DNA from: a virus
Virus record (IMG/VR): IMGVR_UViG_3300036864_000079
Coordinates: 1-46,865 of that record
Reading direction: 5' to 3' (one strand)
Length of the DNA stretch: 46,865 bases
Position numbers and translations under genes: made by a program. Below the pieces are notes generated by a model. It saw only the letters and a list, made by a program, of their open reading frames with translations. It was not told the origin of the DNA and did no database searches. Shown piece by piece: positions 22,364 through 41,812 of this stretch. How positions within the stretch are numbered: the stretch's first letter is position 1; the number at the start of each line of letters is the position of its first letter.

Positions 22364-23458
22364 CTAGGTGCCGACGGTGGCGTGGATATAGCCCGCGCGG
22401 TCGTCGTAGTCCTGCTTGATCCGGGGCGCCCAGGCCGCGAACGTCTGGAAGTAGTTCGTCCAGCCGCTCGGGCTCGCCCACTGAATGTTCGTGACGTCGG
22501 CGGCGACCGCGAGGTCGATCACGTCCGAGGTCATTTGGATCAGCAGCACGTTGCCGTCGGCGAGCACGTCCGAGACGCGGATCGCCTGAATTTGCGCAAT
22601 GGCGAGCACGCGCTGTTCGAGCGTTTTGTCGCTGTTCGCCTTGAGGTCGCGGCGGAACTGGAACGCGTAGGCACCCGGGATGTAGAGACGGAACGGCCCG
22701 TACTTGCGGTGGGTCGTCTCCATCGTCTGAATGAGCTCGAGAATTTCCGTGAGGATCGTCTCGGGCGTCGTCGCCGGGTTGCTCCAGTCGGAAATCGTAC
22801 CGAGCGCACGGCCGGGGAAATTCGTCAGGCCGTAAATCTGGTACGTGTTGGCCGCGGACTTCACCGCGCCGAGCGTGGTGCCGTTGAACACCATGTTCTC
22901 GGACACGCGCGCCACCGAGCGCGCCGCCTCGATACCGGTGGTCACGTCGAGAGCTGCGCCGCGCGTGCGCGACGCGAGCAGCGTGCGCTCGCCGATCTTG
23001 AACGGCTTCTGAATGACCGGGATGGGCACGCCGTTGATGGTGAACTCTTGGCGGTCCTGCTCGGCCTGGGTCTCGCCGTCCATCGTGACTTCGGCGTCGG
23101 TGATTTCGCTCGACGCTTCCCACTCGGAAATGATCGTGCCGAGGCCGCCTACGCTGTAGGTCAGGCCGGCGGCGCGCAAGTCGTCGATGATCACGAGCCG
23201 TTCGCGGCTCGACTCGATCACGCGCTCGTCGAGCTTGACCCACTCGTCCTTGCGGAGCGTGGCGTTGACGTGCGGGCCCATGGCGACCTCGCGGTACACC
23301 TTTTTCCCGCCGACGATTCCGACGTTCGCCACCACCGAAATGCCTCGGCGGTTGATGTACGGCCGGCGCGCGAGGACGTGCTGCTCGCTAATCCGCGCGA
23401 TTTCGTCACCGAGCGGGCTCATTAGCCCGGTCGCGATTTGGAGTGCTGCGCCACGCAT
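22364..23458 (-). CDS. Major capsid protein (HK97 fold expected)
   Basis: 364 residues, directly after the decoration protein and the protease-scaffold. The N-terminal arm (GLMSPLGDEIARISEQHVLARRPYIN is shortened here), a spine-helix region (ETQAEQDRQEFTINGVPIPVIQKPFKIGERTL, seen in pieces), KYGPFRLYIPGAYAFQFR and a C-terminal VTNIQWASPSGWTNYFQTFAAWAPR block fit a group of encapsulin-like HK97-fold capsids (DUF6260-type, by memory). ATG 23458 is preceded by a strong AGGAG site, as expected for a highly expressed gene. It assembles the icosahedral shell. Confidence 0.8.
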   Translation of the reverse strand: MRGAALQIATGLMSPLGDEIARISEQHVLARRPYINRRGISVVANVGIVGGKKVYREVAMGPHVNATLRKDEWVKLDERVIESSRERLVIIDDLRAAGLTYSVGGLGTIISEWEASSEITDAEVTMDGETQAEQDRQEFTINGVPIPVIQKPFKIGERTLLASRTRGAALDVTTGIEAARSVARVSENMVFNGTTLGAVKSAANTYQIYGLTNFPGRALGTISDWSNPATTPETILTEILELIQTMETTHRKYGPFRLYIPGAYAFQFRRDLKANSDKTLEQRVLAIAQIQAIRVSDVLADGNVLLIQMTSDVIDLAVAADVTNIQWASPSGWTNYFQTFAAWAPRIKQDYDDRAGYIHATVGT

Positions 23459-25222: not shown

Positions 25223-26333
25223 TTCGCGGGCGCCTCCACATGAGGGTGAGACCGTTGGCGCCGCTGATCACTTTCGGACGCCACGCGCAGCGGCAGTTCG
25301 GGTGGGCCGGGAGCATGTTACGGGCTTCGTCAATCGAAAACACCCGGCCCTCGAGCGCCTGGCACTCGGGGCACACCCGGTCGTCGCCGGTCGTGCTCCA
25401 CTCGGCCTCGACGTCAACGCCCGCGACGCCGGCTTCGTCGTACGCGTTCAGCGTGGCGTCGGCGTGAGCTGCGATCACTTCCGTTCGCGCCATCACGCGC
25501 GCGCGCGTGATGCCTATCGCCTCGACGCGATCCGCAAGCGCGCGGGCGATCTCGCGTGGGCCTCGGCCCTCGAGCAAGCCCTGCGCGAGCACGCGCGATA
25601 TCTGCACGTCCATCGCGTCCGTGATGTTGTCGAGGTCGGAGAACGCGCGCGTGTAGAGCTGGCCGATCCGGTCGGCGTGGATCGGGCGGTTGAACGCACC
25701 CGAGACCCACGAGTTCCCGACCTTGGCGCCGCTCTGGCGTAGCTTCGCGCCGGCGTCGGCGATGCCTTTCTGGTACGCGCTCTCGACGTAGACGTTCGTC
25801 CACGCGGTCGACGCGGCCTTCGTGATCGGCACGCCCTCGGAAATCTCGAGAATTCCCTGCCGCTCGGCTTGCCGGAGCCAGCGCATAAACGCCGCGCGTT
25901 TTTCCGCGGATCGGGGGAAGTCGAACGCTTTCCGGTGCGATTGCAGGCCGGCCGGGGGCGGCGCGAGGCCGAAGCCGTCGAGGTCCACGATCTGCTCGAC
26001 GATCTTCGCCTTCAGCGCGCGGAATCGACGCACGAGCTCGTTCTCGAACTGTTTGCGCAGCAGCGCCGTTTTCGTCGGGTCGCGCCGGCGCCGCCCGGCA
26101 TTTACGACGAGGGTGCGAAGCCCCCGCGGGAATCGCGGTGCCGGATCCGCGCTGGCCTGAGCTTCTACCGCCACCGCTGGCGTGGGGATCGCCACGGCGG
26201 GGGCGACGGTGGAAGCTCGAGCACGCCGCTCGAGCTTGCGCACCGCCCGCTCGAGCACCCGAATCGAGAGCACCGCGCGCGCGTGCACGGCTTTCAGGAG
26301 CGAGTGCGCGCGGCTCGTGGCTTCGGGTTTCAT
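25095..26333 (-). CDS. Mu gpF-like head morphogenesis protein
   Basis: 412 residues. The N-terminal half is helical and basic. Residues 230-350 carry the Mu gpF signature: ISRVLAQGLLEGRGPREIARALADRV, ARVMARTEVIAAHADATLNAY and the Cys/His end DRVCPECQALEGRVFS...AHPNCRCAW, a probable zinc site. These minor head proteins bind the portal and are often packaged. The last 42 codons overlap the protease gene in another frame and are basic, low-complexity sequence, so they may be dispensable. ATG 26333 overlaps the upstream TGA. Confidence 0.82.
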   Translation of the reverse strand: MKPEATSRAHSLLKAVHARAVLSIRVLERAVRKLERRARASTVAPAVAIPTPAVAVEAQASADPAPRFPRGLRTLVVNAGRRRRDPTKTALLRKQFENELVRRFRALKAKIVEQIVDLDGFGLAPPPAGLQSHRKAFDFPRSAEKRAAFMRWLRQAERQGILEISEGVPITKAASTAWTNVYVESAYQKGIADAGAKLRQSGAKVGNSWVSGAFNRPIHADRIGQLYTRAFSDLDNITDAMDVQISRVLAQGLLEGRGPREIARALADRVEAIGITRARVMARTEVIAAHADATLNAYDEAGVAGVDVEAEWSTTGDDRVCPECQALEGRVFSIDEARNMLPAHPNCRCAWRPKVISGANGLTLMWRRPRNDRNSHHRAQHLHAQRRSGSPGAVRRPHAHSRAGGADRRGRP

Positions 26334-28006
26334 AGGCTCTCGAGTGCCTCCACGGCGACGTCGAACGCGTGCACGCCCGTACGGATCGTCGGCTTCAGGC
26401 CGCGGCGCGAGAACATCGGGCAGTCATGGTACGCCTTCAGCGTCCACGCGCTCGAGACCTCGAGCACGTACGGCACCTCGTCGCGGAACACGACGTCGAA
26501 CGCGAGCCACTTCGTCCCGAGCGTGTCGGCGACCTCGACCGCGAGTTCCGCGGCCGCCACCTCTTGCGGCGTCGATAGCGTGAGCGGCCGGTGGTTGCCC
26601 GAGCCCGACGCGAACGGCGTGCCCGGCCGATTCTCGCGCACGAGCCCATACACGTACGAGCCGATCACGCACACCCGATAGTCGCGGTCGTTGCCGGGCT
26701 CGAACCGCTGCCAGTAGACGTAGCCCTGTTGCCGGCGGCCGTACGCGGTCGGGATTCCCTCGCCGAACGCGCGGCCGATTTCCGAGAGGGCGTCGTCGAG
26801 CGTGTGGAGCAGCCGCACGCCCTTCGATGCGCTCGAGTCGGCCGACTTCGAAATGATCGGGAAGCCGGGCAAGCCCTCGAGCGTGCCCGCCGCGATCGCG
26901 AGCGCCGTGGCGTGCGCGGTGCCGGCGTCGGTGCAATGCACCGTGGGCGGTAGCCACGGCTCGAGCGCGGGGAGCTGCGCCACCTTGTCGTCGTACCACG
27001 AGGCCTCCACCACCGTCGGTAGCGTGACGATGCCCCGCGCGTGGAGCTCGTAGACGAGGTTCTTCGACACCTCGCGCTGGGCGCCCTGCTGGTCGAGCCG
27101 CACGAAGCACTTGCCGTTCCCGACCGTGGCCGCGCGCGAAAACATCGTGCACGGGATCGCCCGCCGCTGGCACGCTTTCGCGAACTCGCCGCCCCAGCCT
27201 TTCGGATCCCGGTACGCGCGGAACCAGACGCGCGCCGGCCGCACCTCGCGCTCGACGCCCTCCCACGCGTCGCCGATCCATGGGTAGCGCCGGCCGGCCT
27301 CGCCCCACGGCTTCACGTTGCCGGGGAAAAACATCAAGCGAAGGAACGGGGGCGGGGCGAGCTGCGCGCGGCCGTTGCCATGGCGCGCAGTGAATCGCGG
27401 CGCGTAGCAGAACACGCCGTGGCCCTCGTCGAAGAGCGGCGTGTCGGGCGGGAGCAAGAGCGAGAGCACGGCTTGATCGCTCCCGATGTAGTGCTTGCGC
27501 GCCTGGGTGGCGATCCCCATGGGGTCGGCCATGAATCGCGCCCAGACGTCAGCTCGAGCGCCGGCCGTCACCTCGAGCAGCGAGCCGTTGAACGGGCGCG
27601 CCGAGCTCGTGCCCTTCAGGATTCGGAACGCGTCGTCGTGGTCGAAGATCGGGTCGAGCGAGGCCGTCGCGATCATGTCGAGGTCCATGCTCACGAGGCG
27701 GTCGCACCCGAACACGCGCTCCGCGTCGGGCGATAGCAGCTCGAGACGCCGGTAGCATTGCGGCGCGCCGTTCTTCTCGCTCCACCCGGGCACCTTGAGG
27801 GCGTCGAGCGTGCGCGGGGGCGGGATGATTTCGACGGCCGGGTCGATCCCTTCGCGCAAGTCGGTGACGCACGCGAGGTCGTGCGGGATCGTGACGTGCT
27901 TGCGCATCATCGCGGCCCAGCGGTTGACCTTTGCTGCGCCGCTCGCCCGGTCGTAGCCGTGGCGGGGCGGGCTCTGCTGCCAGAGCCAGACGAGGAAACG
28001 AATCAT
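26330..28006 (-). CDS. Bifunctional glycosyltransferase / ATP-grasp ligase
   Basis: 558 residues; two domains. Residues 1-240 look like a GT-A glycosyltransferase: a hydrophobic first strand (RFLVWLWQ), YRRLELL, the D-x-D metal motif in SMDLDM (108-110), FNGSLLEV, YIGSDQAVLS and DEGHGVFCY. Residues 255-558 form an ATP-grasp domain: PIISKSADSSASKGVRLL (K387), YWQRFEPGNDRDYRVCVIG, FASGSG (465-470), D504 and E516 in LEVSSAW, where Ser replaces the usual metal-ligand Asn. It would transfer a sugar and ligate an amino-acid-like or carboxylate group with ATP. It is inserted between portal and gpF genes with ATGA coupling, an unusual place for such an enzyme. Substrates are unknown. Confidence 0.75.
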   Translation of the reverse strand: MIRFLVWLWQQSPPRHGYDRASGAAKVNRWAAMMRKHVTIPHDLACVTDLREGIDPAVEIIPPPRTLDALKVPGWSEKNGAPQCYRRLELLSPDAERVFGCDRLVSMDLDMIATASLDPIFDHDDAFRILKGTSSARPFNGSLLEVTAGARADVWARFMADPMGIATQARKHYIGSDQAVLSLLLPPDTPLFDEGHGVFCYAPRFTARHGNGRAQLAPPPFLRLMFFPGNVKPWGEAGRRYPWIGDAWEGVEREVRPARVWFRAYRDPKGWGGEFAKACQRRAIPCTMFSRAATVGNGKCFVRLDQQGAQREVSKNLVYELHARGIVTLPTVVEASWYDDKVAQLPALEPWLPPTVHCTDAGTAHATALAIAAGTLEGLPGFPIISKSADSSASKGVRLLHTLDDALSEIGRAFGEGIPTAYGRRQQGYVYWQRFEPGNDRDYRVCVIGSYVYGLVRENRPGTPFASGSGNHRPLTLSTPQEVAAAELAVEVADTLGTKWLAFDVVFRDEVPYVLEVSSAWTLKAYHDCPMFSRRGLKPTIRTGVHAFDVAVEALESL

Positions 28007-29872
28007 CTACGGCCGCCGACGGTTTTCGGTGATCGTGTCGCGGTAGCTCACCGAGTCGTCCACGGGCTCGAAAATCTCCGGGCCGAGCACGATTTCGCCC
28101 GCGTAGGGCGTGATGCTCTCGAGCGCCTTCGACACGTCCTCGCCGGGCTCGTAGGTGATCGTGACGTGCGGCGTGTAGTCCACGAAATCCCACGACGCGC
28201 CGGCCTCGCGAATCTGGTCATGGCGCCAGCGCAAGTCGGAGCAGTTGAACTCGAGCACCACCGCGCCCGCCGGGCCGAGCTGCTCCACCACCCGGGGGCC
28301 ACCCGCGGGAACGACGAGCTGGCCGTCGGCTTCGCGGCTCCACGCTTCCGAGATTCGCATCCAGTCCACGGGCGCGCGGCTGTACGCGATGGTGACGTGC
28401 ATGGCCTCGCCGACGGTCGTCGGGAAGCCCTGCTCTTTCGCCCAGGCGGCGAGCTCGCGCCAGTTGAGCACGTCGCGGCGAACGTAGAGCGAGCGCGGCG
28501 CAGCGTTGGCCGTCATGGCGTCGGCCGCGGCCTTCACCTCGGGGTTCGTCTCGTCGAGCGGATCGGGCGCCGGCGCGAACGGTTCCTCCGGCGGCGCGTA
28601 GTCGGACACCTCCGAGAGCCCGAGCCACACGCGGAACTCTTCGGGCGGGACGACTTGCTCGGTGCCCGGCGTGCCGACGTACGTCGAGACGGCCGCGGCT
28701 TTCTTGCTCGCAATGTCGGCGCGTTGCACCTCGCCGAGCGTGTCGCTCTCGGGCCAGTTCACCTCGTAGTCGCCGCCCTCGGGCTGGGGCAGGATTCCGA
28801 ACGCTATGAACTTGTCGATGGTCGGCCGGACGATGTTCGGGCCGGCGTGCTGCTCGCGGCGCTCGACGATGCGGCCGGCCCAGTTGTTCTCGTCCTGAGA
28901 GCTGGCGAGCTCGCCCTGCTCGGAGCCGAGCAGGATTCGCTTCGGGATACCGTACGCGCCCGCGATGATCTCGAGCACCTTGTCGATGTGCGGCGAGGGG
29001 TCGTCGATCTGGCCGGCGAGGCTTTGCGGCTCGACGCCGCGGAGCAGCACGTCGCGCCGTAGCTTGTGCTGCATTTCCTCGATCTGTTCCTCCATCGCGA
29101 CTTTATCGGCGGGCTCCCACGTCGCGTCGGCTTCGGCCTTCCACGCGCGGAGCTGCGCGGCGTTCTGCCAGAACACCTCGGCCGATCCGCCGACGAGCTT
29201 GTCGAGGTCCATGAGCCGGTTCCACCCGCGCTCGAGGCGCGGGAGCCCGATGCTCGGATCGTCGAGCGCGTTCTCGGCAACGTGCACGATGCGCGAGGAA
29301 TCGACGATCACCGAGCGCCGGCCACCACCGAAGCCCGCCCAGTCCACGCCGGTCGTGAGGTTGTAGCGCACGGGCGTCCCGAAGTCGGGCTTCGTGGGGT
29401 CGGTGCCCCACGCCGTGATCTGTGCGCTCTGCTCGCCGAATGGCTTCAGGTACCCGAGCTTGTACGCCACACCCGGGCGCGCGGGCAGGTTCGGTTGCTC
29501 GGCGCCGCCCAGGCCGAGGAACAGCACGCCGTAGTGGCCCATGTTCACGAGCCGGTCGAGGCGGTGGAGCACCTGAAATAGTTTCAGGTCCTTGTTGAGC
29601 TGCTCGACGGCTTGCGCGAACGGGCCCTCGCCGTTCTCGTCGCCGAGCGCGCACACGGTCGGGCACTCGCGCCACGTCGCCGCCGGGTACGCGTCCACGA
29701 TGCGGGCCGCAATGTCGCCGCGGAGATAGGCGCCGAAGTAGTCCTCGGCGTTGAGCTCGCGCGGGTAGCCGAGCACGTCGTAGAGGTCGCGCTGGCCGCC
29801 GAATTGCAGGCCGGCGAGAGACGACATGAGCCAGCGCCACGTACGTTTGACCGGGTTGGAAGTGATCGCCAT
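28007..29872 (-). CDS. Portal protein with C-terminal 2H-phosphoesterase (Acb1-like) domain
   Basis: 621 residues. Residues 1-430 form a DUF1073-type portal (LYDVLGYPRELNAEDYFGAYLRGD in part, IVDAYPAATWRECP, LERGWNRLMDLDKLVGGSAEVFWQNA in pieces, IPKRILLGSEQGELASSQDE). After a Pro-rich linker (about 445-460), residues 475-610 carry two H-x-T motifs, MHVTIAYS (H492) and TPHVTITY (H569), 77 residues apart, the hallmark of 2H phosphoesterases such as the anti-CBASS nuclease Acb1. The portal half makes the DNA entry ring. The added domain could degrade cyclic oligonucleotide alarm signals. Catalysis is inferred from the motifs. Confidence 0.8.
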   Translation of the reverse strand: MAITSNPVKRTWRWLMSSLAGLQFGGQRDLYDVLGYPRELNAEDYFGAYLRGDIAARIVDAYPAATWRECPTVCALGDENGEGPFAQAVEQLNKDLKLFQVLHRLDRLVNMGHYGVLFLGLGGAEQPNLPARPGVAYKLGYLKPFGEQSAQITAWGTDPTKPDFGTPVRYNLTTGVDWAGFGGGRRSVIVDSSRIVHVAENALDDPSIGLPRLERGWNRLMDLDKLVGGSAEVFWQNAAQLRAWKAEADATWEPADKVAMEEQIEEMQHKLRRDVLLRGVEPQSLAGQIDDPSPHIDKVLEIIAGAYGIPKRILLGSEQGELASSQDENNWAGRIVERREQHAGPNIVRPTIDKFIAFGILPQPEGGDYEVNWPESDTLGEVQRADIASKKAAAVSTYVGTPGTEQVVPPEEFRVWLGLSEVSDYAPPEEPFAPAPDPLDETNPEVKAAADAMTANAAPRSLYVRRDVLNWRELAAWAKEQGFPTTVGEAMHVTIAYSRAPVDWMRISEAWSREADGQLVVPAGGPRVVEQLGPAGAVVLEFNCSDLRWRHDQIREAGASWDFVDYTPHVTITYEPGEDVSKALESITPYAGEIVLGPEIFEPVDDSVSYRDTITENRRRP

Positions 29873-29887
29873 GGGTGGGCCCTCGAG

Positions 29888-31123
29888 TTACCAGACGCCC
29901 GCACGCTTGCGCCGAAGCCGGAGATTTTCGACGGCATACCGTAGCGCATCGATCACGTTGTTGTCGCGATCCTCGAGCTCGGGCAGCACGAGTTCGGTCT
30001 GCTTGTCGACTTTGTACTTGTAGGCCGCAAGCTCTTGCCGGGTGCGGACGCACCGCGAGTGCACGACGATATCCCAGTTCTTGAGGAACTCGACGCCCTC
30101 TTCGACAGAGCCCGCACCCTTGCGCGCGCCGACGAGCTTCGGGTAGCCGTTGCGCTGCATATAGTCGATGGTCTCGGGCCGCGCCGAGTCGGCGGCGATG
30201 GGCCACTTGCGCGCCCAGCCCGGTTCCTCCGGCACGAGCGAGTCGAAGTAGCGCGGCGTCGCGTCAATCGGGAGGGCGAGCTTCCAAAGCTCGCGGTCGA
30301 CGAAGAGCTTCCGGCGCTCGACGTCCACGTAGCAGCGGATAAGCACCGTCGGATCGGTGGAGAAACCCCAGTCGGCGCCGAGCATGAAGGCGACCGAGTG
30401 CGTGGGCGTCTCGAATTCCTCGACGGTCCAGTTATCGAACACCCGGGCCTTGCTCCGGGTCTCGTACGCGCCGCCCCAGACGTGCGCCGCCATCTCGGGG
30501 TCGCGGCGATAGTCGTAGAGCATTTCCGCGCGCGACTCGTCCGGGAACATCGCGTTGTCCTCGGGCTGCACGCCGATCACCACCGCGCCCGGCGGTGGCT
30601 CGCCCGTGCGGAGCAGGACGTCCACGGGGTCGGTGGCGTTGCGCGGGTTCCACGAGAACCAGCGCTCGGCGCCTTTCTTGCGCAGCGTCGGCCGGTAGAT
30701 GCGCAGCGACTTCTCGCTCAGGGTTTGCGCCTCGTCTACCCAGCCGACGTCGAAGTCCTCAAGCGACTTGATCGACTCGGCGTTCTGGTTCTGCATTCCC
30801 TGAAACGCGATGAGGCCGTAGCCCCCGCGAATCTCGATCACGTCGCGCATGATTCGAAACTTCCGCTGCACGCGGAACTTGCGAATCTTGTCCTCGATCA
30901 GCGCCTTCGACGAGAGCCGCAAGCTCGACTGAATCTCACGGATGCACACTTGCCGGTAGTCGTCGCGCGCGTAGGCGATGGCGTTCGCGACGGTCTGCTC
31001 GCCGAAGAAGTGCGACTTACCGGTGGCGCGGCCGCCGTGTGCGCCTTTGTACGGGGCGGGGCCGAGCAGCGGCGCGAACGCGCGCGAGACCGGGAACCGC
31101 AGCGCGCCGTTGTCGACGATCAC
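29888..31123 (-). CDS. terL: Terminase large subunit
   Basis: 411 residues from GTG 31123, overlapping the TGA of the small subunit. Walker A is GGRATGKS (residues 30-37) and Walker B is VGWVDE (126-131), followed by AQTLSEKSLRIYRPTLRKK and WNPRNATDPVD (coupling motif region). The nuclease domain begins at MLGADWGFSTDPT (first catalytic Asp) and includes IAADSARPETIDYMQ and RDNNVIDALRYAVE (last acidic residue). This is the PBSX/terminase_3 type that translocates and cuts concatemeric DNA at the portal. Confidence 0.93.
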   Translation of the reverse strand: MIVDNGALRFPVSRAFAPLLGPAPYKGAHGGRATGKSHFFGEQTVANAIAYARDDYRQVCIREIQSSLRLSSKALIEDKIRKFRVQRKFRIMRDVIEIRGGYGLIAFQGMQNQNAESIKSLEDFDVGWVDEAQTLSEKSLRIYRPTLRKKGAERWFSWNPRNATDPVDVLLRTGEPPPGAVVIGVQPEDNAMFPDESRAEMLYDYRRDPEMAAHVWGGAYETRSKARVFDNWTVEEFETPTHSVAFMLGADWGFSTDPTVLIRCYVDVERRKLFVDRELWKLALPIDATPRYFDSLVPEEPGWARKWPIAADSARPETIDYMQRNGYPKLVGARKGAGSVEEGVEFLKNWDIVVHSRCVRTRQELAAYKYKVDKQTELVLPELEDRDNNVIDALRYAVENLRLRRKRAGVW

Positions 31124-31584
31124 TTCGGCGGGGCCGGGTCCACAATGAAGAACTCGATCCGGTCGAACTCGACGTCCTCGGGGCCGGCGTCGTCCTCGCC
31201 GCGCCGGAGCCCGAGCCGCAGGCCGCGCTTCTGGTACGCCGGGTGCCGGTGGAGCAGGTAGAACCGAAGGTTCTCGGGCGTGTAGTCCTCGAGCGTGCGC
31301 TCGGTGCGCTCGATTTCTTTGCCGGCGGCGTCGAGCTTCACGCGCGTCTCGGTGCGCTGGCGCCCCTGAATGGCGTCGGCCAGCAGCCGCGACTCGGCGG
31401 CGTCGAGAAACGTGGCCTCGGCCTCGTCCCACTCGGCGGCGAATTCCTTGTCGGCCTTGCGCTTGTCGTAGAGGTGCTGGCGGTTCATTTCCGCCGCGCG
31501 CGCGCTCGCCGACACGTTGCCGGATTTCGCGAGCTGCTCGAGGAACGCCGCCCGCCGTTTCTTGGTGAACGACTTACGCCGCAT
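31120..31584 (-). CDS. terS: Terminase small subunit
   Basis: 154 residues. Starts with a basic HTH (SFTKKRRAAFLEQLAKSGNVSASARAAEM in part, RQHLYDKRKADKEF), the standard terminase small-subunit fold for DNA recognition, followed by ESRLLADAIQGRQR and an oligomerisation region. The C-terminus (EDYTPENLRFYLLHRHPAYQ) is typical of the group. The ATG at 31584 lies 11 bases inside the end of the FkbM gene, and its stop overlaps terL. Confidence 0.85.
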   Translation of the reverse strand: MRRKSFTKKRRAAFLEQLAKSGNVSASARAAEMNRQHLYDKRKADKEFAAEWDEAEATFLDAAESRLLADAIQGRQRTETRVKLDAAGKEIERTERTLEDYTPENLRFYLLHRHPAYQKRGLRLGLRRGEDDAGPEDVEFDRIEFFIVDPAPPK

Positions 31585-32272
31585 CGTTCGGCACGAAGAT
31601 CAGGTCGGAGCCGTGGAACCCTCCGTCGTGCTGCACCTCGTCGGGGAGCGTGTACACCTCGGTCTCGCAGCGGTAGCCCAGGCGGGAGAGCCATACCATA
31701 AGCTCGCCACGCGTGCGGCCGTAGCGTTCGATCAGCAGGTTCTCTTCGGCCACGATCACGGGCCGGCACCGCTCGAGCGTTCGGCGCGCGCCCTTGCACA
31801 CCTCGAGCTCGTAGCCCTCGACGTCGAGAAACAGGGCGTCGAGCTTGGCGACGTGGAGCTCGTCGATACAGAGCATGCCCACGGGCACGGTCGCGCCGAG
31901 GTCGGGCTGCTCCGTGACAAAGTGCATGCCGTTCGATTCGGCCGAGCGGTGGAGCGCGGCCACGCCCGACGACTGGCCGAGGGCCCGGTGGACCACGACG
32001 GCGTTCGAGGTGCCGGCGAGGTTGCGGGCGGCGCACGCGTAGTTCTCGGGGTCGGCTTCGAACGCGAGCACCGACACAAAGCGCGATGCCAGCTCGAGCG
32101 GCCAGAGCCCGCAACGGGCGCCGCCCTGAATGGCGACGTAGCGGCCGCGGACGTAACGCAGGGCGCGCTCGATCTGCTGGCGCGCGAGCGCGCGGCCGGC
32201 CTCGTCGTTCAGTTGCGCGTCAGGCCGCCCCGCGTCGCCGTCCGGTATCCACCACCCGTTGACCTCGAGCAC
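31574..32272 (-). CDS. FkbM-family SAM methyltransferase
   Basis: 232 residues from GTG 32272, one base overlap with the DNA methylase stop. Motif I-like YVAIQGGARCGLWPLELA, VLAFEADPENYACAARNL (acidic SAM-ribose loop), HRALGQSSGVAAL and the family signature ALFLDVEGYELEVCKGA are present, then RPVIVAEENLLIERYG. FkbM enzymes O-methylate sugars or polyketides; in polysaccharide clusters they cap glycans. In this phage the gene lies between the terminase and a DNA methylase, near glycosyltransferases, so glycan methylation is plausible but unproven. Confidence 0.8.
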   Translation of the reverse strand: MLEVNGWWIPDGDAGRPDAQLNDEAGRALARQQIERALRYVRGRYVAIQGGARCGLWPLELASRFVSVLAFEADPENYACAARNLAGTSNAVVVHRALGQSSGVAALHRSAESNGMHFVTEQPDLGATVPVGMLCIDELHVAKLDALFLDVEGYELEVCKGARRTLERCRPVIVAEENLLIERYGRTRGELMVWLSRLGYRCETEVYTLPDEVQHDGGFHGSDLIFVPNDAA

Positions 32273-33591
32273 TAGTGCACCGCGTCGTCTGGGCCCTTCG
32301 CGTCGTCGCCGATGCGCTGCTGAGTGATCTCGGTGAACGTCGGGCCGTGGTCGTCGCCGAGGCGCGCCTCGAGGCTGCGCAAACGCATCATCCGGCCTAT
32401 GGTCACGTCGCACCACCCGGGCGAAATGTCGGCGGCGAAGCACACGCGGTCGAGCTGCGCGGCGGCCACCATGGTCGAGCCGGATCCGCAGAACGGCTCG
32501 GCCACGTTGTCGCCCGGGCCGGTGCTGTTCTCGATCAGCTCCCGGAGCAGGCCCACGGGCTTCGCGGCGTTGTGCTCGCGCTCGGCGCCGGTCGGGCGGT
32601 TGTAGCGCAGCACGTTCGGCTTGTGCACCGAGCGTTGGCCGGCGGGGCGGTGGCCCATCGCGGTTTGCTTCGGGAGCTTCGCGAAGAACCCGATCATCTC
32701 GTGCGTGTTCGCGTAGTTCGAGCCGAGGCCGGCGCCGCCCTTGTCCCACACGAGCAGGTTCTTCGGCTCCATGGTCGGGATTCGCTTGCACGCTTGCCAG
32801 ATGGCCGGCCACGAGCGCCAGTCGCAGCAAATGTACGCGTGCCCGAACCACGCGAGGTGGTCCTTCGCAAGCGTCAGCACTTTCTCGAAGAACGGCAGCA
32901 CCATGTTGTCGTCGGCAATGTCCGACGCGATGCCGGTCGCGCTTCCGTAGATCGCGTAGGGCGGGTCGGTGACGATCGCGTGGATAGGCGCGCCGCCGAT
33001 CAGGCCGGCGAGGGATTTCTTCGCGAGCGAGTCGATACACGCAAGGCGATGGGGCCCGATGTGCCACACGTCGCCCAAGCGGGTGATCGGCTGCGCGGGG
33101 ATCGTGCCGAAGTCGTCCTCGCCCGACTGGCCGGCGGCGTTGTGCTCGCGCTGGTTCCGCGCGGCGTTGGCTTTCTTGCGTACCTCACGCTGGCCGGCGA
33201 CGTCGAACCCGACCGTCTCGAGCGAGAAGCCCGAGGCCGCGAGCTCGTCGAACTCGAGGGCGAGCACTTCGAAGTCCCACCCGGCGTTCTCGGCCAGTCG
33301 GTTGTCGGCGATCACGTACGCGCGCGCCTGGGCGTCGGTGAGGTGGCCCAGTTCGATGCACGGCACGACTTTTAAGCCCAGCTTGCGGGCCGCGAGAACA
33401 CGGGCGTGGCCGGCGATGATGGACGAGTCTGCGCGCACGAGCACGGGAGTCGTCCACCCGAACTCCCGGATGCTCGCGGCAATCTCGGCGACTTGGGCGT
33501 CGCTGTGCGTGCGTGAGTTTCGGGCGTACGGAATGAGGGTTTCGATCTTGCGCTCGACGATCTCGAGCCGCGGTTTCGCGGGTTTCGTCAC
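32272..33591 (-). CDS. ParB-like domain fused to DNA adenine/cytosine-N4 methyltransferase
   Basis: 439 residues from GTG 33591, with a GGAGG site and the ATCAGCAAC leader. Residues 5-100 are a ParB/sulfiredoxin-like domain (IPYARNSRTHS, SIREFGWTTPVLV, IIAGHARVLAA, VIADNRL). Residues 165-400 are a DNA methylase with DPPY (209-212), a WFGHAYICCDW helix and FCGSGST (367-373, SAM pocket); motif IV precedes motif I, indicating the beta class. Such orphan phage enzymes protect DNA from restriction. No cognate nuclease lies nearby. Confidence 0.9.
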   Translation of the reverse strand: MTKPAKPRLEIVERKIETLIPYARNSRTHSDAQVAEIAASIREFGWTTPVLVRADSSIIAGHARVLAARKLGLKVVPCIELGHLTDAQARAYVIADNRLAENAGWDFEVLALEFDELAASGFSLETVGFDVAGQREVRKKANAARNQREHNAAGQSGEDDFGTIPAQPITRLGDVWHIGPHRLACIDSLAKKSLAGLIGGAPIHAIVTDPPYAIYGSATGIASDIADDNMVLPFFEKVLTLAKDHLAWFGHAYICCDWRSWPAIWQACKRIPTMEPKNLLVWDKGGAGLGSNYANTHEMIGFFAKLPKQTAMGHRPAGQRSVHKPNVLRYNRPTGAEREHNAAKPVGLLRELIENSTGPGDNVAEPFCGSGSTMVAAAQLDRVCFAADISPGWCDVTIGRMMRLRSLEARLGDDHGPTFTEITQQRIGDDAKGPDDAVH

Positions 33592-33710
33592 GACAGTTCC
33601 TCCGGGGGCGTTGCTGATTGTCGGGTTGTCGGGTCCAAGGGTACGCGCGGACGTGCGGATTGTGCACGAATCCGGGGGGCTTTCGCCCCGTTCTGATACG
33701 GTTCCGCGCG
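33592..33710. promoter_or_regulatory. Leader and intergenic region upstream of the ParB-methylase
   Basis: Contains the leader of the leftward methylase gene (ATCAGCAA on the minus strand of 33611-33618, then GGAGG) and, on the other side, the upstream sequence of the small rightward gene at 33711. A GC-rich hairpin-like tract (GGGGGGCTTTCGCCCC) lies at about 33675-33690. No convincing -35/-10 pair was identified. Confidence 0.4.
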
Positions 33711-33824
33711 ATGGCGCACCGAAACGAGCGCGAATCGTCCCGAGTCTGCTGGGTCCTGCTCTGGGTCGGCGTCGCCGCGTGGCTCGCGTGGGTCGGGGCC
33801 GGGATCTGGTTAGCGTTTCACTAG
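33711..33824 (+). CDS. 37-residue membrane microprotein, opposite strand to neighbours
   Basis: ATG 33711 to TAG 33824. Polar basic N-terminus (AHRNERESSR) and one Trp-rich membrane helix (VCWVLLWVGVAAWLAWVGAGIWL). It is the only rightward reading frame of note between 8408 and 44959 and overlaps the 3' end of the GNAT-like gene by 15 bases. No clear ribosome-binding site is seen, so it may be fortuitous, but the hydrophobic composition is coherent. Confidence 0.35.
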   Translation: MAHRNERESSRVCWVLLWVGVAAWLAWVGAGIWLAFH

Positions 33825-34271
33825 CACGTCGAGCCGCGGGCGCCCATGGCCGCCGGGCGTGGTGCCGACGTATGCGTAGCCGGCGAGCTTGAAACAACAC
33901 CCGGGGTTCGTGGATCGGATGCGATCTGCGGCGACGTACGTGTAGAGCGGCGCCGGGCCCCACTTCTCGAGCGCGAAGGCCTCGGCGGCGAGGATCAGCT
34001 CGGAAGCGCGCGGCCCCGATTCGCGGCGGAACACCGCGCAGTTCACGCCGTTGGCCGGGGCGAGCGGGCAGTCGTCCGCGAATCGGCGCCACGCGAAGAG
34101 GGCGCCCAAGTCGTGCGTCAGCAGGACGACGTACGAGCCCGGGCCGGTGATCTTCGGCGCGGTGTTGCCGCGCGACGAGTAGTGGCGGTTGTAGATCGGC
34201 CGGAGCCGCGGGTCGCCGTCCCGCACTGAGAACCACGGGCCGGCCTCGAGCACGAGCGCGGGCTGGTTCAC
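33810..34271 (-). CDS. GNAT-like phage protein, possibly a Mom-type base modifier
   Basis: 153 residues. Features are IYNRHYSSRG near the N-terminus, strands SYVVLLTHDLGALFAW, an acidic/hydrophobic helix ASELILAAEAFALEKWG, PLYTYVAAD, and the ending NPGCCFKLAGYAYVGTTPGG...LDVLVKR, where the F-K-x-A-G-Y/W and G-x-T block is a common end of GNAT acyltransferase-like folds. Phage Mu Mom, a GNAT-like DNA adenine modifier, ends in a comparable way. Adjacency to a DNA methylase makes a DNA-modifying role worth testing, but the Mom comparison is from memory and tentative. Confidence 0.5.
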   Translation of the reverse strand: MNQPALVLEAGPWFSVRDGDPRLRPIYNRHYSSRGNTAPKITGPGSYVVLLTHDLGALFAWRRFADDCPLAPANGVNCAVFRRESGPRASELILAAEAFALEKWGPAPLYTYVAADRIRSTNPGCCFKLAGYAYVGTTPGGHGRPRLDVLVKR

Positions 34272-34543
34272 GACGGCTTCACGAATCCGCCGGGCTTCGC
34301 GGGCGTGGCGCCCGGGCCTTCGATCAGTCGGAACCGGAGCACGGTGCCCGTGATTCCGTCCACCGCCCGGACGGCTGCGCCGCGGTGCTTCGGGAACTCG
34401 TCGAGCTCGGCGACTGGTATGTCGAGCTGGCCGCCGTGGCGGGCGAGCACGAGCAGGAACGCGTCGGCGACTGCGCGCCGCATGAGCGTGGCCTCTTCGT
34501 CGGTGAGGTCGTCGAGCGTCGTGATCGGGCGGTCGTCTGTCAT
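34268..34543 (-). CDS. Small hypothetical protein
   Basis: 91 residues; its stop overlaps the next ATG (ATGA). Begins ITTLDDLTDEEATLMRRAVADAFLLVLARHGG, a helix-rich stretch, then VAELDEFPKHRGAAVRAVDGITGTVLRFRLIEG, likely a short beta hairpin. No motif is recognised. Co-expression with the GNAT-like protein is indicated by the overlap. Confidence 0.6.
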   Translation of the reverse strand: MTDDRPITTLDDLTDEEATLMRRAVADAFLLVLARHGGQLDIPVAELDEFPKHRGAAVRAVDGITGTVLRFRLIEGPGATPAKPGGFVKPS

Positions 34544-34553
34544 GGGGTGGGCC

Positions 34554-35000
34554 TCAGATAACGCGGACGCGGATACCGTAGATCGATTCGACGAGGGCGC
34601 GCTTCAGGCGGGCGACGTCGGTATCGCTACCCATGCCGGGGTGTTTGCGTGGCAAACGTGGGGTGCCGGTGGGTAATTGTGGGCGGGGCTTCGGAATGCC
34701 CTTCACGTCCTCGACGACGCGCTCGTTCGTGCGGGTGTCGAAGTAGCGGAAGTCGGCCACGTAGTACACCGCCCGGCCGTTCGGGGAGCCGTGCGACCGT
34801 ATCTTCACGGGCTCGCCGTTCACGACGATGGGGTACCGGGGCTGGCGTTCGAGGTCGCGGATCACGCCGGCCAGCTCGAGCAGCTTGAGCGCGGTGTAGC
34901 GGGCCGCCTCTTTCTTCGAAGCGAACCGGATACCGTCGACGAACGTGGGTTTTGCGCCGAACTTCGACGCCCGAGCGCCGAAGAATCGGGCGCGGTTCAC
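34554..35000 (-). CDS. DUF1064-type PD-(D/E)XK nuclease-like protein
   Basis: 148 residues from GTG 35000. The family pattern is clear: SKFGAKPTFVDGIRFASKKEAARY (Glu in the first helix), LELAGVIRDLERQPRYPI, then YYVADFRYFDTRTNERVVEDVKG (the D...E-x-K core). DUF1064 proteins are predicted nucleases found across phages and may resolve or process DNA junctions for packaging or recombination. The exact activity is not shown by the sequence. Confidence 0.75.
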   Translation of the reverse strand: MNRARFFGARASKFGAKPTFVDGIRFASKKEAARYTALKLLELAGVIRDLERQPRYPIVVNGEPVKIRSHGSPNGRAVYYVADFRYFDTRTNERVVEDVKGIPKPRPQLPTGTPRLPRKHPGMGSDTDVARLKRALVESIYGIRVRVI

Positions 35001-35004
35001 GGGA

Positions 35005-35859
35005 TCACTTGAGACATAGACGGCCTTCCGGGACCGGGCGCTCCATGAGCGACGCCGCCAGTGTAGCAAGCGCGGCGGGCCGTGGCGTGTCGGCGGCCAG
35101 CATGGGCAAATACGGGGCGTCGGCCGCCACCCACGCCCGCGGGTTCATGGGCACGTTCGGGTGGAGCGCGAGACACGGCGTGCGGAAGTGATTCGCGAGA
35201 ATCGTCATGCCGGAAATGACGCCCACGAGCACCGACGCGTTGGCGATCAGGCCGGCCACCTGGGGCAGCGACGTCTGGTCGACGAGGTTCTCGAACGGCG
35301 CCCGGACGTTCGCGAGGAACGACGCGTCCCAGCTCTTGCCGATTACCGTCGGCACAACGCCGGTCGCGTTGCCGAGTTCCTCGAGGAACGAGGACCAGTA
35401 GTAGGCGCCGAGGTTCGAGCACCACGCCGCGTTGACGCCCTCGCTCGAGACGTATACGAGCACGGCGCCGGATTTCTTCGGGGGCTCGATCTGAATCGGG
35501 AAGTCGAGGTCGAGCTCGAACTCGGGGAGCCAGTCGGCAAGCATCCCGCCGCGGTCGATGATGCTGTTCGGCCAGAGTAGCGCGTTCATGCCCGGGAGCT
35601 TCAGCGAGAAACCGTCGCGCTGGCCGTCGGCGTCGAGGCGGAACGGGCGCTCCATCGTGCCGTCCACGAGGTCGGTCATTCGCTGCCACTCGAGCGCGCG
35701 CGTCAGTTTCGTCCGTTGCACGGCGAGGGTGACGTGGCGTATGCGGTAGCGTTCGCGGATCGCGCGCAGCTTGCAGAGCGCCCAGTAGACGTCGCCGACG
35801 CCCGAGGGAACGCCGAACACGACGCGCCGTTCCAGTCCTAGCCCAAGCCGGTCAGCCAT
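35005..35859 (-). CDS. GT9-like glycosyltransferase (heptosyltransferase fold), copy A
   Basis: 284 residues; ATG 35859 lies 22 bases inside the upstream gene's end. The N-terminal Rossmann half starts VVFGVPSGVGDVYWALCKLRAI, like the GD-x-hydrophobic start of ADP-heptose transferases. The C-terminal half has FENLVDQTSLPQVAGLIANASVLVGVISGMTILANHF (in pieces) and TPCLALHPNVPMNPR, the donor-binding pattern of GT9 (S/D-G-x-x-H/I-L-A). Two adjacent GT9-like genes suggest stepwise sugar addition. Donor and acceptor are unknown. Confidence 0.68.
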   Translation of the reverse strand: MADRLGLGLERRVVFGVPSGVGDVYWALCKLRAIRERYRIRHVTLAVQRTKLTRALEWQRMTDLVDGTMERPFRLDADGQRDGFSLKLPGMNALLWPNSIIDRGGMLADWLPEFELDLDFPIQIEPPKKSGAVLVYVSSEGVNAAWCSNLGAYYWSSFLEELGNATGVVPTVIGKSWDASFLANVRAPFENLVDQTSLPQVAGLIANASVLVGVISGMTILANHFRTPCLALHPNVPMNPRAWVAADAPYLPMLAADTPRPAALATLAASLMERPVPEGRLCLK

Positions 35860-36617
35860 GCCATTACCCTTTCCGCCGCTTCGGGCGGTTCGATGCGTTC
35901 TTGGATCTTCTCTTGGCCGTCGAAGTCGAGACGGCGGGGGCGAGGGTACGGCTCGTCGAGCTGGTAGCCGTCGTAGAACGTCACCTGCGGCACGCCGAGG
36001 TAGCCGGCGAGCACGGTCAAGCCGTTCTCGATCCCGACGAACGCTTTCGCGCCCGCGAGCATGGCGGCGACGTTGCGAAAGCGGGCGCCGAACATCCGAA
36101 CCTTGGCGTCGACGAGCGGGTGGTCGCCGGCCGCGCCGATCTGCACGATTTGGTAGCGGCGCGCGAGGACGTGCGCGAGCTGGTCGAAATTCCGGTGGCC
36201 CCACTCCCGCCCACCGCGTTCGCGTTTCTTGCCGTGGCCGATCATGACCACGTAGTCGCCGGGCTTGCGCTCGGCGCCGCGAAACGTCGGATACACGCCG
36301 CGCTTGTATTCAATCGCGAGGCCGGTCAGGTCGTTCAGGTTGTGGACGGTGCTCTCGATGTAGTTGTCGGGCGGCCACTTGCGGTAGATCAGGTCGGCCG
36401 CTTCGGCGAACGGCGCCGGCGGGCGGCCGGATTTCCACACGACGTCGGAGCAGTGAAACGCCTGAGCGGGAAACCCGTGCGGGAGCCGATGCGTTGCCCA
36501 CAGCTCGACGTCGGGGCGCTGCTGGTTCGCGAGCTTGAACACGGCCAGCACGAAGAGCCAGTCGCCGAGCCCTTGGTAGGGCCGGTGCACCCAGACGCGG
36601 CCGCCCTCGGGGCTCAC
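35838..36617 (-). CDS. GT9-like glycosyltransferase (heptosyltransferase fold), copy B
   Basis: 259 residues from GTG 36617, overlapping the methyltransferase stop (GTGA). N-terminus HRPYQGLGDWLFVLAVFKL; C-terminal half GDYVVMIGHGKKRERGGREW, FDQLAHVLARRYQIVQIGAAGDHPL, AAMLAGAKAFVGIENGLTVLAGYLGVPQV, a good match to the GT9 acceptor-donor architecture (W-x-x-E/R-N-F, GxxxDxP, the G-x-x-x-G-L-T-x-L-A block). It likely uses a nucleotide sugar. It pairs with the downstream copy A. Confidence 0.72.
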   Translation of the reverse strand: MSPEGGRVWVHRPYQGLGDWLFVLAVFKLANQQRPDVELWATHRLPHGFPAQAFHCSDVVWKSGRPPAPFAEAADLIYRKWPPDNYIESTVHNLNDLTGLAIEYKRGVYPTFRGAERKPGDYVVMIGHGKKRERGGREWGHRNFDQLAHVLARRYQIVQIGAAGDHPLVDAKVRMFGARFRNVAAMLAGAKAFVGIENGLTVLAGYLGVPQVTFYDGYQLDEPYPRPRRLDFDGQEKIQERIEPPEAAERVMAWLTGLG

Positions 36618-37339
36618 ATTGCGACGCCGTACACCACGAGCTTGCCCGGCACGGGGCGGTCCACCTCGAGCACCCGGAGCCCAGCGGCTCGGAATAAGTC
36701 GCGCAGCGACTGCTCGGTGAAGAACCAGAGGTGCTCGGGCTTGAAGTGATGGTCGCCGGCCGACGTCGCGCAGTCGGGCACGTCCACGACGAGCGCGCCG
36801 CCCGTTCGCATTTGCGCGCGCGCGTTCTCGAGCTCGGCGGCCGGCTCGACGAGGTGCTCGAGGACGTCGTGATACGTCACGAGCTCGAACCGCACCATGC
36901 CGAAGAGCCGCTCGGCCTGTTCGATGGTGCCCGTAACGATCTCGGGGTCGCGGGCCATCGCTGGGTCGGGGTCGATCCCGAAGGCCTTGAGGTGGTGCTT
37001 GCGCAAGTGATCCACCCACGCGCCGTTCGCGGCGCCGACGTCGAGCGCGCGCGCGCCGCGGTTGAGCTGCGCGCCGAGGGTTTGCCGGTATCGCTCGAGC
37101 CGTAGCTGCGCGATCGCACGGTCGTGCAGGTAACGCTTGCGGTACGGGATGCACCCGGGGTGCCGATCCTCGGCGGCGTGGTACGCGCCGCGATACTGGC
37201 CCTCGACGGCCTCGCGCGAGACGTCGGTGAGCTGGTGGATCACGCCACACGCGCAGCGCGCGACGGCGAGACCGGTGGGAGCGTTGTACTCGTCGAACGG
37301 CCCGACAGAGCCGCAGAGGCAGCGTGTGATTAGATGCAA
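36614..37339 (-). CDS. Zinc-finger SAM methyltransferase of a sugar-modification type
   Basis: 241 residues, starting with TTG at 37339 after a CCCGGAGAACCCC leader like that of the ERF gene. Two CxC pairs (C7/C9 in RCLCGS, C29/C31 in RCACGV) form a probable zinc site. Residues 90-200 are a class I methyltransferase: ARALDVGAANGAWVDHL (motif I), KAFGIDPDPAMARD, VTYHDVLEHLVEP and MRTGGALVVDVPDC. The combination of N-terminal Cys motif and methyltransferase is typical of enzymes that methylate nucleotide-linked sugars or lipid-like substrates. First gene of the glycosyltransferase cluster. Confidence 0.72.
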   Translation of the reverse strand: MHLITRCLCGSVGPFDEYNAPTGLAVARCACGVIHQLTDVSREAVEGQYRGAYHAAEDRHPGCIPYRKRYLHDRAIAQLRLERYRQTLGAQLNRGARALDVGAANGAWVDHLRKHHLKAFGIDPDPAMARDPEIVTGTIEQAERLFGMVRFELVTYHDVLEHLVEPAAELENARAQMRTGGALVVDVPDCATSAGDHHFKPEHLWFFTEQSLRDLFRAAGLRVLEVDRPVPGKLVVYGVAM

Positions 37340-39950: not shown

Positions 39951-40378
39951 TCGGGTTCCTCGGTGGCGTGCTCGACGAGAAACGCCTCGAGCAGCGCCTG
40001 CAGCGGCCCTAGGTCGGCGTCCGTCACGTCGACGAGCTTCGCGCACCCGGTCGCGTCGAGCGCGATCAGGAACGCGCGCACGTCCTCGAGCGTGACCGGC
40101 GCGAGTTCGCCGCTCATGGTGCGGCACGCGAACGCGACGGCCACGGGGTTCTCGAGCTCGCCGACGTGGGTACAGCTCTCGAGAATCGTCGCCTCCCAGT
40201 GCTTGCGCTCTTCGACGATTTCTTCGGGCGTCCACCCGCGGTTCATTTTCGGAACCTCGTGGTAGCCGGGCGGGTTCTCGGCGAGGTGGTGGGCGAACGC
40301 GGCCTCAATCGCGCGCGGCATGTTCTCGGCGACGAACAGGCGGCGCTCCCGGTCCTCGGTGATCTGGTAGACGTTCAC
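39947..40378 (-). CDS. Hypothetical protein
   Basis: 143 residues from GTG 40378, coupled at both ends by GTGA. Begins VYQITEDRERRLFVAENMPRA, the kind of short strand-plus-helix start seen in phage proteins acting as small adaptors, then WTPEEIVEERKHWEATI, an internal SCTHVGELENPVAVAFACRT segment, and a helical acidic C-terminus. No family is assigned. Confidence 0.6.
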   Translation of the reverse strand: MNVYQITEDRERRLFVAENMPRAIEAAFAHHLAENPPGYHEVPKMNRGWTPEEIVEERKHWEATILESCTHVGELENPVAVAFACRTMSGELAPVTLEDVRAFLIALDATGCAKLVDVTDADLGPLQALLEAFLVEHATEEPE

Positions 40379-41094
40379 GCGGCACCGCCGAGCACGGCCG
40401 GCAAGTCGGGAATCGTCCCGCCTTTCGTGAGGTAGTTCTCCGAGGTCTGGGCGATGTGCTTCGCGCCGGCGTAGTTGATGCACGCGCGGCGGTCGTCGGC
40501 GGTCCAGGTCACCACGATTTCCTCGGAGCACTCGATGCCGACGAGGGCGAGGACGTCACGCACGCACACGAACGAGAGGCCGGCGACGTCGAGTTCCTCG
40601 GTCAAGAGGACCTCACCGCCACCCGCGTCGGTGCCTTCGCCGTGCTCGGGGTCGTCGTCGTCGTTCTGGGGCGCCGCGAACGGGAGCGCGGGCTGGTCGG
40701 CGTCGGCGCGAATCTCTTCCATTTTCGCGAGGTAGCGCTGCGCGTTCGTCAGGATCACCACCACCTCGGAGCCGGCGCAGTCGGCCATCTTGTGTCGCTC
40801 GGCGACGTCGCCCTTCAGCGAGAGCTTGCCGTTCACGCCCTTGGCGGTGAATTCGACTTTCTCGAGGACGGCCGCGGCCTTCTGGAAATCGGCGGCGACG
40901 ATCAGCAAGAAACCGCGCGTCAGCACGGCGCGAATGTCCTGCTCGGCGCGCCGGATCACGGTCTCTTGCTGCGCCTCGCTCAGTTTGTGCCACGGCTTCT
41001 GGGCCTGTTTCAGCTCGCCGACGACGAGGGCGAGCATGTCACGGCCGACGAAGTTCGCGACGGCCTCGGCCTTGTTGGGTTTGGGTTCACTCAT
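40375..41094 (-). CDS. Hypothetical phage protein
   Basis: 239 residues. The N-terminal block (KPWHKLSEAQQETVIRRAEQDIR, then LLIVAADFQKAAAVLEKVEFTAKGVNGKLSLKG in part, HKMADCAGSEVVVIL) matches a recurring phage protein of unknown role. A strongly acidic linker (DDDDPEHGEGTD) leads to a C-terminal segment (SEEIVVTWTADDRRACINYA). It overlaps the Dam-like gene by eight bases. Confidence 0.65.
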   Translation of the reverse strand: MSEPKPNKAEAVANFVGRDMLALVVGELKQAQKPWHKLSEAQQETVIRRAEQDIRAVLTRGFLLIVAADFQKAAAVLEKVEFTAKGVNGKLSLKGDVAERHKMADCAGSEVVVILTNAQRYLAKMEEIRADADQPALPFAAPQNDDDDPEHGEGTDAGGGEVLLTEELDVAGLSFVCVRDVLALVGIECSEEIVVTWTADDRRACINYAGAKHIAQTSENYLTKGGTIPDLPAVLGGAA

Positions 41095-41812
41095 GCGGGT
41101 TGCTCCGTTGGTTTTTCATGTAGTTGTCGAGGTCCGAGAAGATCGCCCCCCGCTCGTGCTCGGGGAGTTCTGCGAAATTGGCGAGCCACCGTTTGCGCTT
41201 GCGCTTGATGCGCTCGCGCTCGCGGTAGTTCGTGCCGACGTGCTCGTAGCCGTGGAGCTCGGCGGGCGGCGAGAAGTTGAGCCAGAGCGACTCCGGCACC
41301 ATGACGCCGCCGCGCGTCATTGCCATGTAATCGACGCGCGTCCACTCCGAGAGCCACGCGTCGTAGATCGGGCAGCGGTAGCCCGAGACCATGACCCTCG
41401 CCGCCGTTGACGTTAGAAGCTCGAGCAGCTCGACGTGCTGCTCGTCGGTGAGTTCGTGGTGGTAGTTGCAGCGGTCTGAGCGCCTGGCCGAGAGCGGATA
41501 GGGCGGGTCGGCGTAGAGCAGCACGCCCGGGCCGAGTGCCGGCGCCGCGACGCGGAGCCACTCGAACACGTCCTGATTGTGCCACGCGATCGCGGTCTCG
41601 GCGGGCTGGCGCAGCGCGAAGTAGCGGCCGCGCAAGTCGTCGAGCGCCTCGCGGTGAAGCTCGAACACGAGCGTGCGCTCGGCGGGCTCTTTGTGCCGGA
41701 GCACGGCGCCACCGCCCGCGAACATTTCGACGTAGACCTTGTGCGGTGGCATGAGGTTGACGATTCGCTGCCAGACGCCCTCGCCCTCTTTCCCGCCCGG
41801 GTACGTGGTCAT
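41087..41812 (-). CDS. D12-class DNA adenine methyltransferase (Dam-like)
   Basis: 241 residues. YPGGKEGEG near the N-terminus, YVEMFAGGGAVL (motif I, residues 27-38), DPPYPL (102-107, catalytic) and WLNFSPPAELHGYEHVGTNY give the alpha-class order with motif I before motif IV. It methylates adenine N6 in DNA. The target sequence cannot be read from the protein. ATGA-coupled to the C5 methylase, suggesting a joint anti-restriction role. Confidence 0.9.
   Translation of the reverse strand: MTTYPGGKEGEGVWQRIVNLMPPHKVYVEMFAGGGAVLRHKEPAERTLVFELHREALDDLRGRYFALRQPAETAIAWHNQDVFEWLRVAAPALGPGVLLYADPPYPLSARRSDRCNYHHELTDEQHVELLELLTSTAARVMVSGYRCPIYDAWLSEWTRVDYMAMTRGGVMVPESLWLNFSPPAELHGYEHVGTNYRERERIKRKRKRWLANFAELPEHERGAIFSDLDNYMKNQRSNPHE

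Follow-up and report, generated by a model that had tools for sequence, protein, structure and literature searches.

Two putative glycan-modification modules in the late gene run of an apparently complete virus record

Background

What does a virus modify with glycosyltransferases and methyltransferases that are encoded among its DNA-packaging genes, and do such genes form one set? The question is raised by the virus record IMGVR_UViG_3300036864_000079 (IMG/VR), whose full 46,865 bases are analyzed here and referred to as the window. A preliminary description of this DNA had grouped five genes as a single set by which the phage makes a modified sugar destined for the virion, for its own DNA or for the host surface. 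All five open reading frames exist, on the minus strand, and we refer to the three genes of one cluster as module B and to the fused gene as module A:

35005 to 35859, minus strand: GT9b, GT9-like glycosyltransferase of module B (284 amino acids, ATG start, Shine-Dalgarno match)
35838 to 36617, minus strand: GT9a, GT9-like glycosyltransferase of module B (259 amino acids, GTG start)
36614 to 37339, minus strand: ZnMT, class I methyltransferase of module B with an N-terminal CxC...CxC, a putative zinc site (241 amino acids, TTG start)
31574 to 32272, minus strand: FkbM-family methyltransferase (232 amino acids, GTG start), 3 kb downstream of module B
26330 to 28006, minus strand: module A, a GT8-like GT-A glycosyltransferase (amino acids 1 to about 255) joined to a RimK/LysX-like ATP-grasp ligase (about 256-558), with 558 amino acids in all

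Here we present evidence, drawn from sequence and fold comparison, that the window holds two or more modules within a single late gene run of uniform direction. The glycosyltransferase/ATP-grasp fusion has a history of its own, apart from module B, and the window unites modules that are usually found apart. On balance we consider it probable that these are two separately acquired glycan-modification modules and that a virion structural protein is glycosylated and methylated by their products.

Results

Enzyme families of module B and FkbM

The family names given in the preliminary description are mostly correct, profile and fold matches pointing to glycan- and methyl-transfer families, and the motifs that it listed are present (FASGSG, LEVSS and DVEGYE, an invariant D-x-D and two CxC pairs). 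FkbM exceeds the cut-offs of both PF05050 (2.5e-16, 60.7 bits against 22.7) and TIGR01444 (60.3 against 37.7). ZnMT belongs to Methyltransf_23 (Pfam, 1.2e-21), and 8 homologues retain both of its Cys pairs; its profile retrieves from the PDB two unassigned methyltransferases first, followed by the sugar C-methyltransferases TcaB9 and D-mycarose 3-C-methyltransferase.

The two GT9-like proteins are more divergent from their family profile, PF01075, with sub-threshold E-values of 8.8e-4 for GT9b and 0.002 for GT9a and with scores of 19.1 and 17.9 bits that lie under the curated cut-off of 22. Their homologues in two of the outside loci described below score 21.7 bits (L052) and 24.1 bits (L054), the latter over the cut-off. 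The GT9a profile ranks WaaF/WaaC first in the PDB and the GT9b profile TibC/WaaC, with weak E-values of 0.01-0.09. The GT9b fold model, of moderate confidence (predicted local distance difference test, pLDDT, 65), matches 1psw at 3.9e-7. WaaC/WaaF entries and a Veillonella GT9 make up the nine best PDB matches of this model, so its GT-B fold is nearest to GT9 structures. In GT9 enzymes such as WaaC, an N-terminal G-D step bears the catalytic Asp. This step is found in both window proteins, as G-x-G-D in GT9b (D23, invariant in 6 homologues) and as G-D-W in GT9a (D19, invariant among homologues).

Module B in the head and neck regions of other phages

Relatives of module B were found by a viral scan with ZnMT and an alignment scan with GT9b. 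No matches came from searching phage records by tblastn with GT9a, GT9b or ZnMT, from viral scans that used GT9a or FkbM as a single query sequence, or from a genome-contig scan with GT9b. Four phages (L044, L045, L051 and L052) carry GT9a, ZnMT and GT9b as a group, in a gene order unlike that of the window. L052 has a contiguous array of FkbM (40% identical to the window FkbM), GT9a, ZnMT, GT9b and an MptE-like gene, followed by the major head protein gene. The cassette follows a Phage_cap_E capsid gene and precedes neck or major tail genes in L044 and L045, and sits between portal and Ad1/Hc1 in L051. Two further loci are L049, with GT9b just upstream of Hc1, and L054, where a ZnMT-GT9 fusion follows a capsid gene that belongs to the window's family. 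GT9b thus lies in the head/neck region in 6/6 outside loci, and the phages with the cassette represent three different capsid families. If that region makes up about one fifth of a genome, the probability of six out of six by chance would be near 1e-4, a rough estimate rather than a computed test. That GT9a, ZnMT and GT9b recur together in four further phages, in one case with FkbM, exceeds chance and is not coincidence.

Weak matches point to an MptE/DUF115-like companion of the cassette in L045, L051, L052 and L054, and L044 seems, by inspection only and without a family match, to have one as well. The L054 fusion (L054:7179-9872, 897 amino acids) clusters with alcohol dehydrogenase, transketolase and short-chain dehydrogenase genes, and this phage may synthesize its own sugar donor.

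FkbM is also found in other settings. Its homologue in MW202462 adjoins a 'mannosyltransferase' gene, upstream of terminase; in Tetraselmis virus S20, FkbM, GT2-like and GT8-like genes stand in a row directly before the head closure gene Hc1; in T4-like and other large phages FkbM occurs without nearby glycosyltransferases.

The placement of module B bears on a first alternative, in which the GT9-like and GT8-like enzymes alter a host surface glycan (lipopolysaccharide core or capsule precursors) and thereby change a receptor or block superinfection. Bacterial GT9s are mainly lipopolysaccharide heptosyltransferases, as the fold matches of GT9b reflect, and cyanophage glycan clusters have been interpreted in this way (PMC7824862). 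However, the late, head-module position in all six outside loci corresponds to a poor time for receptor change. Lysogenic serotype conversion is rejected because no integrase family match was found in the complete record. We regard modification of a host glycan as unlikely.

The glycosyltransferase/ATP-grasp fusion

The N-terminal half of the module A protein is a glycosyltransferase by its match to phrog_1962 (3.9e-8), and phage GT8 proteins are among the fold matches of the fusion, although most PDB matches of the whole protein come from its ATP-grasp half. Foldseek places the C-terminal half in the ATP-grasp fold (ArgX at 1.4e-12, with many LysX and RimK entries), while its sequence scores 16.8 bits against a cut-off of 21 for PF08443, the RimK-like ATP-grasp family. 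D108-x-D110, K387, D442, R444 and E516 are invariant in homologues. The E-x-N metal-binding motif of RimK-like ligases reads E516-V-S518 in the fusion, and Ser replaces Asn in L002, L004 and L005 as well. The model has a mean pLDDT of 78 and a predicted template modeling score (pTM) of 0.52, so the arrangement of the two halves is uncertain.

Relatives that are about 50% identical over the full length lie beside portal, MuF and DUF2213 genes in five contigs (L002, L003, L004, L055 and L056), accompanied by the capsid gene wherever the contig extends that far. Because L002, L003 and L055 are closely related to one another, the five contigs represent about three independent lineages. L055, a contig of a metagenome-assembled genome, was the one contig found in a scan of genome contigs with module A. 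A GT2-like gene (GT2 by inspection) adjoins module A in L055 and L056, together with a methyltransferase gene in L056. An unfused counterpart is found at L005:9050-11816, where ATP-grasp, NAD-epimerase and glycosyltransferase genes stand in a row with the major head gene upstream and a head-morphogenesis gene downstream. Homologues of the glycosyltransferase half occur in EBPR siphovirus 3, in Tetraselmis virus S20/SI1, and as PmgQ of P1 and HdmD of P7.

One set or two modules

Module A had no match in the five contigs L044, L045, L051, L052 and L054, which carry module B, and module B was not seen at the module A loci, several of which are fragments. A five-family set inherited as a unit is therefore rejected. 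What survives of the single set is a cassette of FkbM, the two GT9s and ZnMT, contiguous in L052, from which the fusion is separate. Likewise, the co-occurrence in related phages that the preliminary description proposed to survey is seen for module B, once with FkbM, and not between modules A and B.

This separation raises a second alternative, that module A, FkbM and module B are unrelated accessory cargo that yields no common product, their separate insertion into late intergenic slots being a matter of chance. Besides the mutual absence of A and B, it can draw on FkbM alone in several T4-like phages and on 29 terL-related contigs that carry none of the five families within their available flanks. 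Such cargo would not be expected to hold together as GT9a, ZnMT and GT9b do in four phages despite the different gene order, with FkbM added in L052, nor to include the GT2-like and methyltransferase neighbors of module A. Chance cargo is, in our judgment, distinctly unlikely.

The late gene run and its other genes

The window appears to be complete and is treated as one circular assembly, because both of its ends carry an identical 127-bp repeat; that it is a mere fragment is rejected on the same ground. Megablast of its 20-44 kb part against phage records gave no close DNA relative. The late genes are carried by the minus strand, where, from 37,339 down to 25,095, neighboring genes overlap slightly or lie no more than 15 bases apart, with one exception, a gap of 218 bases (33,592-33,809). 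A strong terminator-like hairpin (38,373-38,345; 13 pairs, 11 of them G-C, and a T run) lies just upstream of the run with module B. No sigma-70-like promoter was found within 25-38.5 kb. The interleaving with packaging and DNA-modifying genes is confirmed, and besides a DUF1064 gene it involves:

28007 to 29872, minus strand: portal protein with a C-terminal Acb1-like 2H domain (PF06381 1.4e-28, PF23474 1.4e-35), in the context of module A
29888 to 31123, minus strand: terminase large subunit, TerL (PF17288/PF04466)
31120 to 31584, minus strand: probable terminase small subunit, TerS, adjoining TerL and resembling the L004 gene before TerL (8e-18); it shares 11 bases with the end of the FkbM gene
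32272 to 33591, minus strand: ParB-N / N4-N6 DNA methylase fusion (PF01555 1.9e-25, PF02195 9.1e-7), an enzyme of ordinary DNA methylation

Two more DNA methylase genes, D12-class adenine and C5-cytosine, adjoin each other at 41087-43122. These neighbors bear on a third alternative, in which phage DNA is the substrate and receives a sugar or an amino-acyl sugar as a hypermodification. DNA hypermodification by phage glycosyltransferases is known (Pyle et al. 2024, as cited in PMC12619734). We searched the genome for enzymes of the deoxynucleoside monophosphate hydroxymethylase, TET/JBP and deazaguanine (TGT) routes; PF00303, which covers the thymidylate-synthase-family hydroxymethylases, PF12851 and PF01702 gave no match, the control for TET/JBP (PF12851) being weak. 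Hypermodification by these routes is disfavored because no base-priming enzyme was found. In addition, the window's DNA methylases were not found with module B in the available flanks of L044, L045, L051 and L052. DNA as the target, an option of the preliminary description, is thus very improbable.

Several other features of the window were recorded. The portal's Acb1-like 2H phosphoesterase domain has both H-x-T motifs (MHVTIAY and PHVTITY), and the Pam3 portal 8hds aligns across this region too; a portal-borne activity against the cyclic-oligonucleotide-based antiphage signaling system (CBASS) is a candidate idea. The sequence at 40375-41094 resembles a bacterial HORMA domain weakly and below the cut-off (0.01); this fold occurs in CBASS systems. 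For the major capsid protein (22364-23458) the family matches are DUF6260 and Linocin_M18, an encapsulin family. Ser/Thr-rich stretches of the structural proteins were inspected and had no predictive value. The 153-amino-acid protein at 33810-34271 belongs to phrog_24928, an unknown family, and in L004 its counterpart is likewise next but one to the ParB-methylase. It may have an acetyltransferase/Mom-like fold, and thus be a Mom-like DNA modifier, the hint being a HYS-R motif only: hhalign against Mu Mom lends no support, giving a probability of 0.3% with a three-sequence profile of little power, and the HYS-R stretch is all that the two have in common.

Discussion

From these families we infer a scheme in which the two GT9-like enzymes of module B would act in succession as transferases of activated sugars, with methylation, and so capping, of those sugars by FkbM and the CxC methyltransferase. 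No epimerase or sugar nucleotidyltransferase family matched in the complete record. Sugar biosynthesis by the phage itself is therefore rejected, the earlier statement that the phage makes a modified sugar becomes doubtful, and the host is implied as the supplier of the sugar donors. The GT8-like half of module A would add a sugar. Its RimK/LysX-like half, using ATP, would join an amino acid (or other amine and carboxylate) to the sugar or the protein through an amide bond, the partner being an amino acid or a peptide; such an amino-acyl step would fit the nearest folds of this half, those of ArgX/LysX and RimK, which are amino-acid ligases with protein substrates.

The likeliest acceptor would be a virion structural protein (capsid, decoration, neck or tail). 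A virion protein is favored because of the head placement and because phage enzymes are documented to glycosylate the virions of mycobacteriophages (Che8 and others; Freeman et al. 2023, as cited in PMC12619734 and PMC11256854). The GT9b loci are all in head/neck regions although the query genome has module B elsewhere in its late run, and module A stays beside portal, MuF and DUF2213 in its five contigs, with the split form of L005 between head genes. Placement in such regions across different capsid families is consistent with the virion target that the preliminary description had favored.

Several points weigh against this assignment. The virion target is deduced from gene context, and substrate and product are putative. 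GT9 enzymes of known bacteria act on lipopolysaccharide. Module B of the window itself is upstream of the packaging genes and away from the capsid gene, and the head-module placement in other phages could reflect a late-expressed insertion hot spot. The ATP-grasp activity could be altered, because the metal motif reads E-x-S in place of E-x-N. Ser/Thr-rich stretches of the structural proteins were inspected and had no predictive value.

A more specific route, in which the fusion attaches a sugar to a virion protein and then ligates an amino acid, giving an amino-acylated glycan that the GT9/methyltransferase cassette may extend and cap, is a tentative and rather unlikely proposal. We know of no amino-acylated glycan as a virion modification and, to our knowledge, glycosylation of the phage particle has been documented in only a few phages.

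That phage-encoded glycosyltransferases decorate virions is already known. The present enzyme combination and its form as a head-module cassette were not found in the literature searched. The GT9-ZnMT-GT9 (with FkbM) cassette and the portal-side glycosyltransferase/ligase fusion would offer two sequence signatures by which virion-modifying phages could be found, and would help to test the role of the decoration in stability, antibody shielding, adsorption and evasion of host defense.

Comparison with known systems

The GT9-type heptosyltransferases WaaC/WaaF and TibC provide the fold and the top profile matches of the window GT9s. TibC, a protein heptosyltransferase, and GT9b have an S-G step in common where WaaF has D-S-G. 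Identity in the fold alignments is only 10-17%, and the window GT9s are shorter (259-284 amino acids, compared with 320-406). The C-terminal half of the fusion shares with RimK, LysX and ArgX the ATP-grasp fold, and its conserved Lys and D-x-R positions align with theirs; the window ligase differs in being fused to a glycosyltransferase, in its E-x-S motif and in scoring under curated cut-offs.

PmgQ of P1 and HdmD of P7, late-operon glycosyltransferases, are homologous to the glycosyltransferase half of module A (about 24% identity) but are without an ATP-grasp half. HdmD adjoins a sialyltransferase-like gene and is annotated as head morphogenesis. No experimental function of either was found in the literature searched, the search for hdmD giving unrelated matches only. 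Tetraselmis viridis virus S20/SI1 likewise has FkbM and GT8-like genes in a glycan cluster that lies between capsid and Hc1 and also holds GT2-like, MptE/sialyltransferase-like and methyltransferase genes, whereas homologues of GT9, ZnMT and the ATP-grasp ligase were not found there.

Mycobacteriophages offer the known case of phage-encoded glycosyltransferases with sugars on capsid and tail tube subunits, as the citing articles summarize it. The predicted set of the window differs in its make-up, a GT9 pair, a CxC methyltransferase and a GT8/ATP-grasp fusion, and in location: the Maravista genes are described in these sources as lying near the genome end, whereas genes of the window's type are in the head module.

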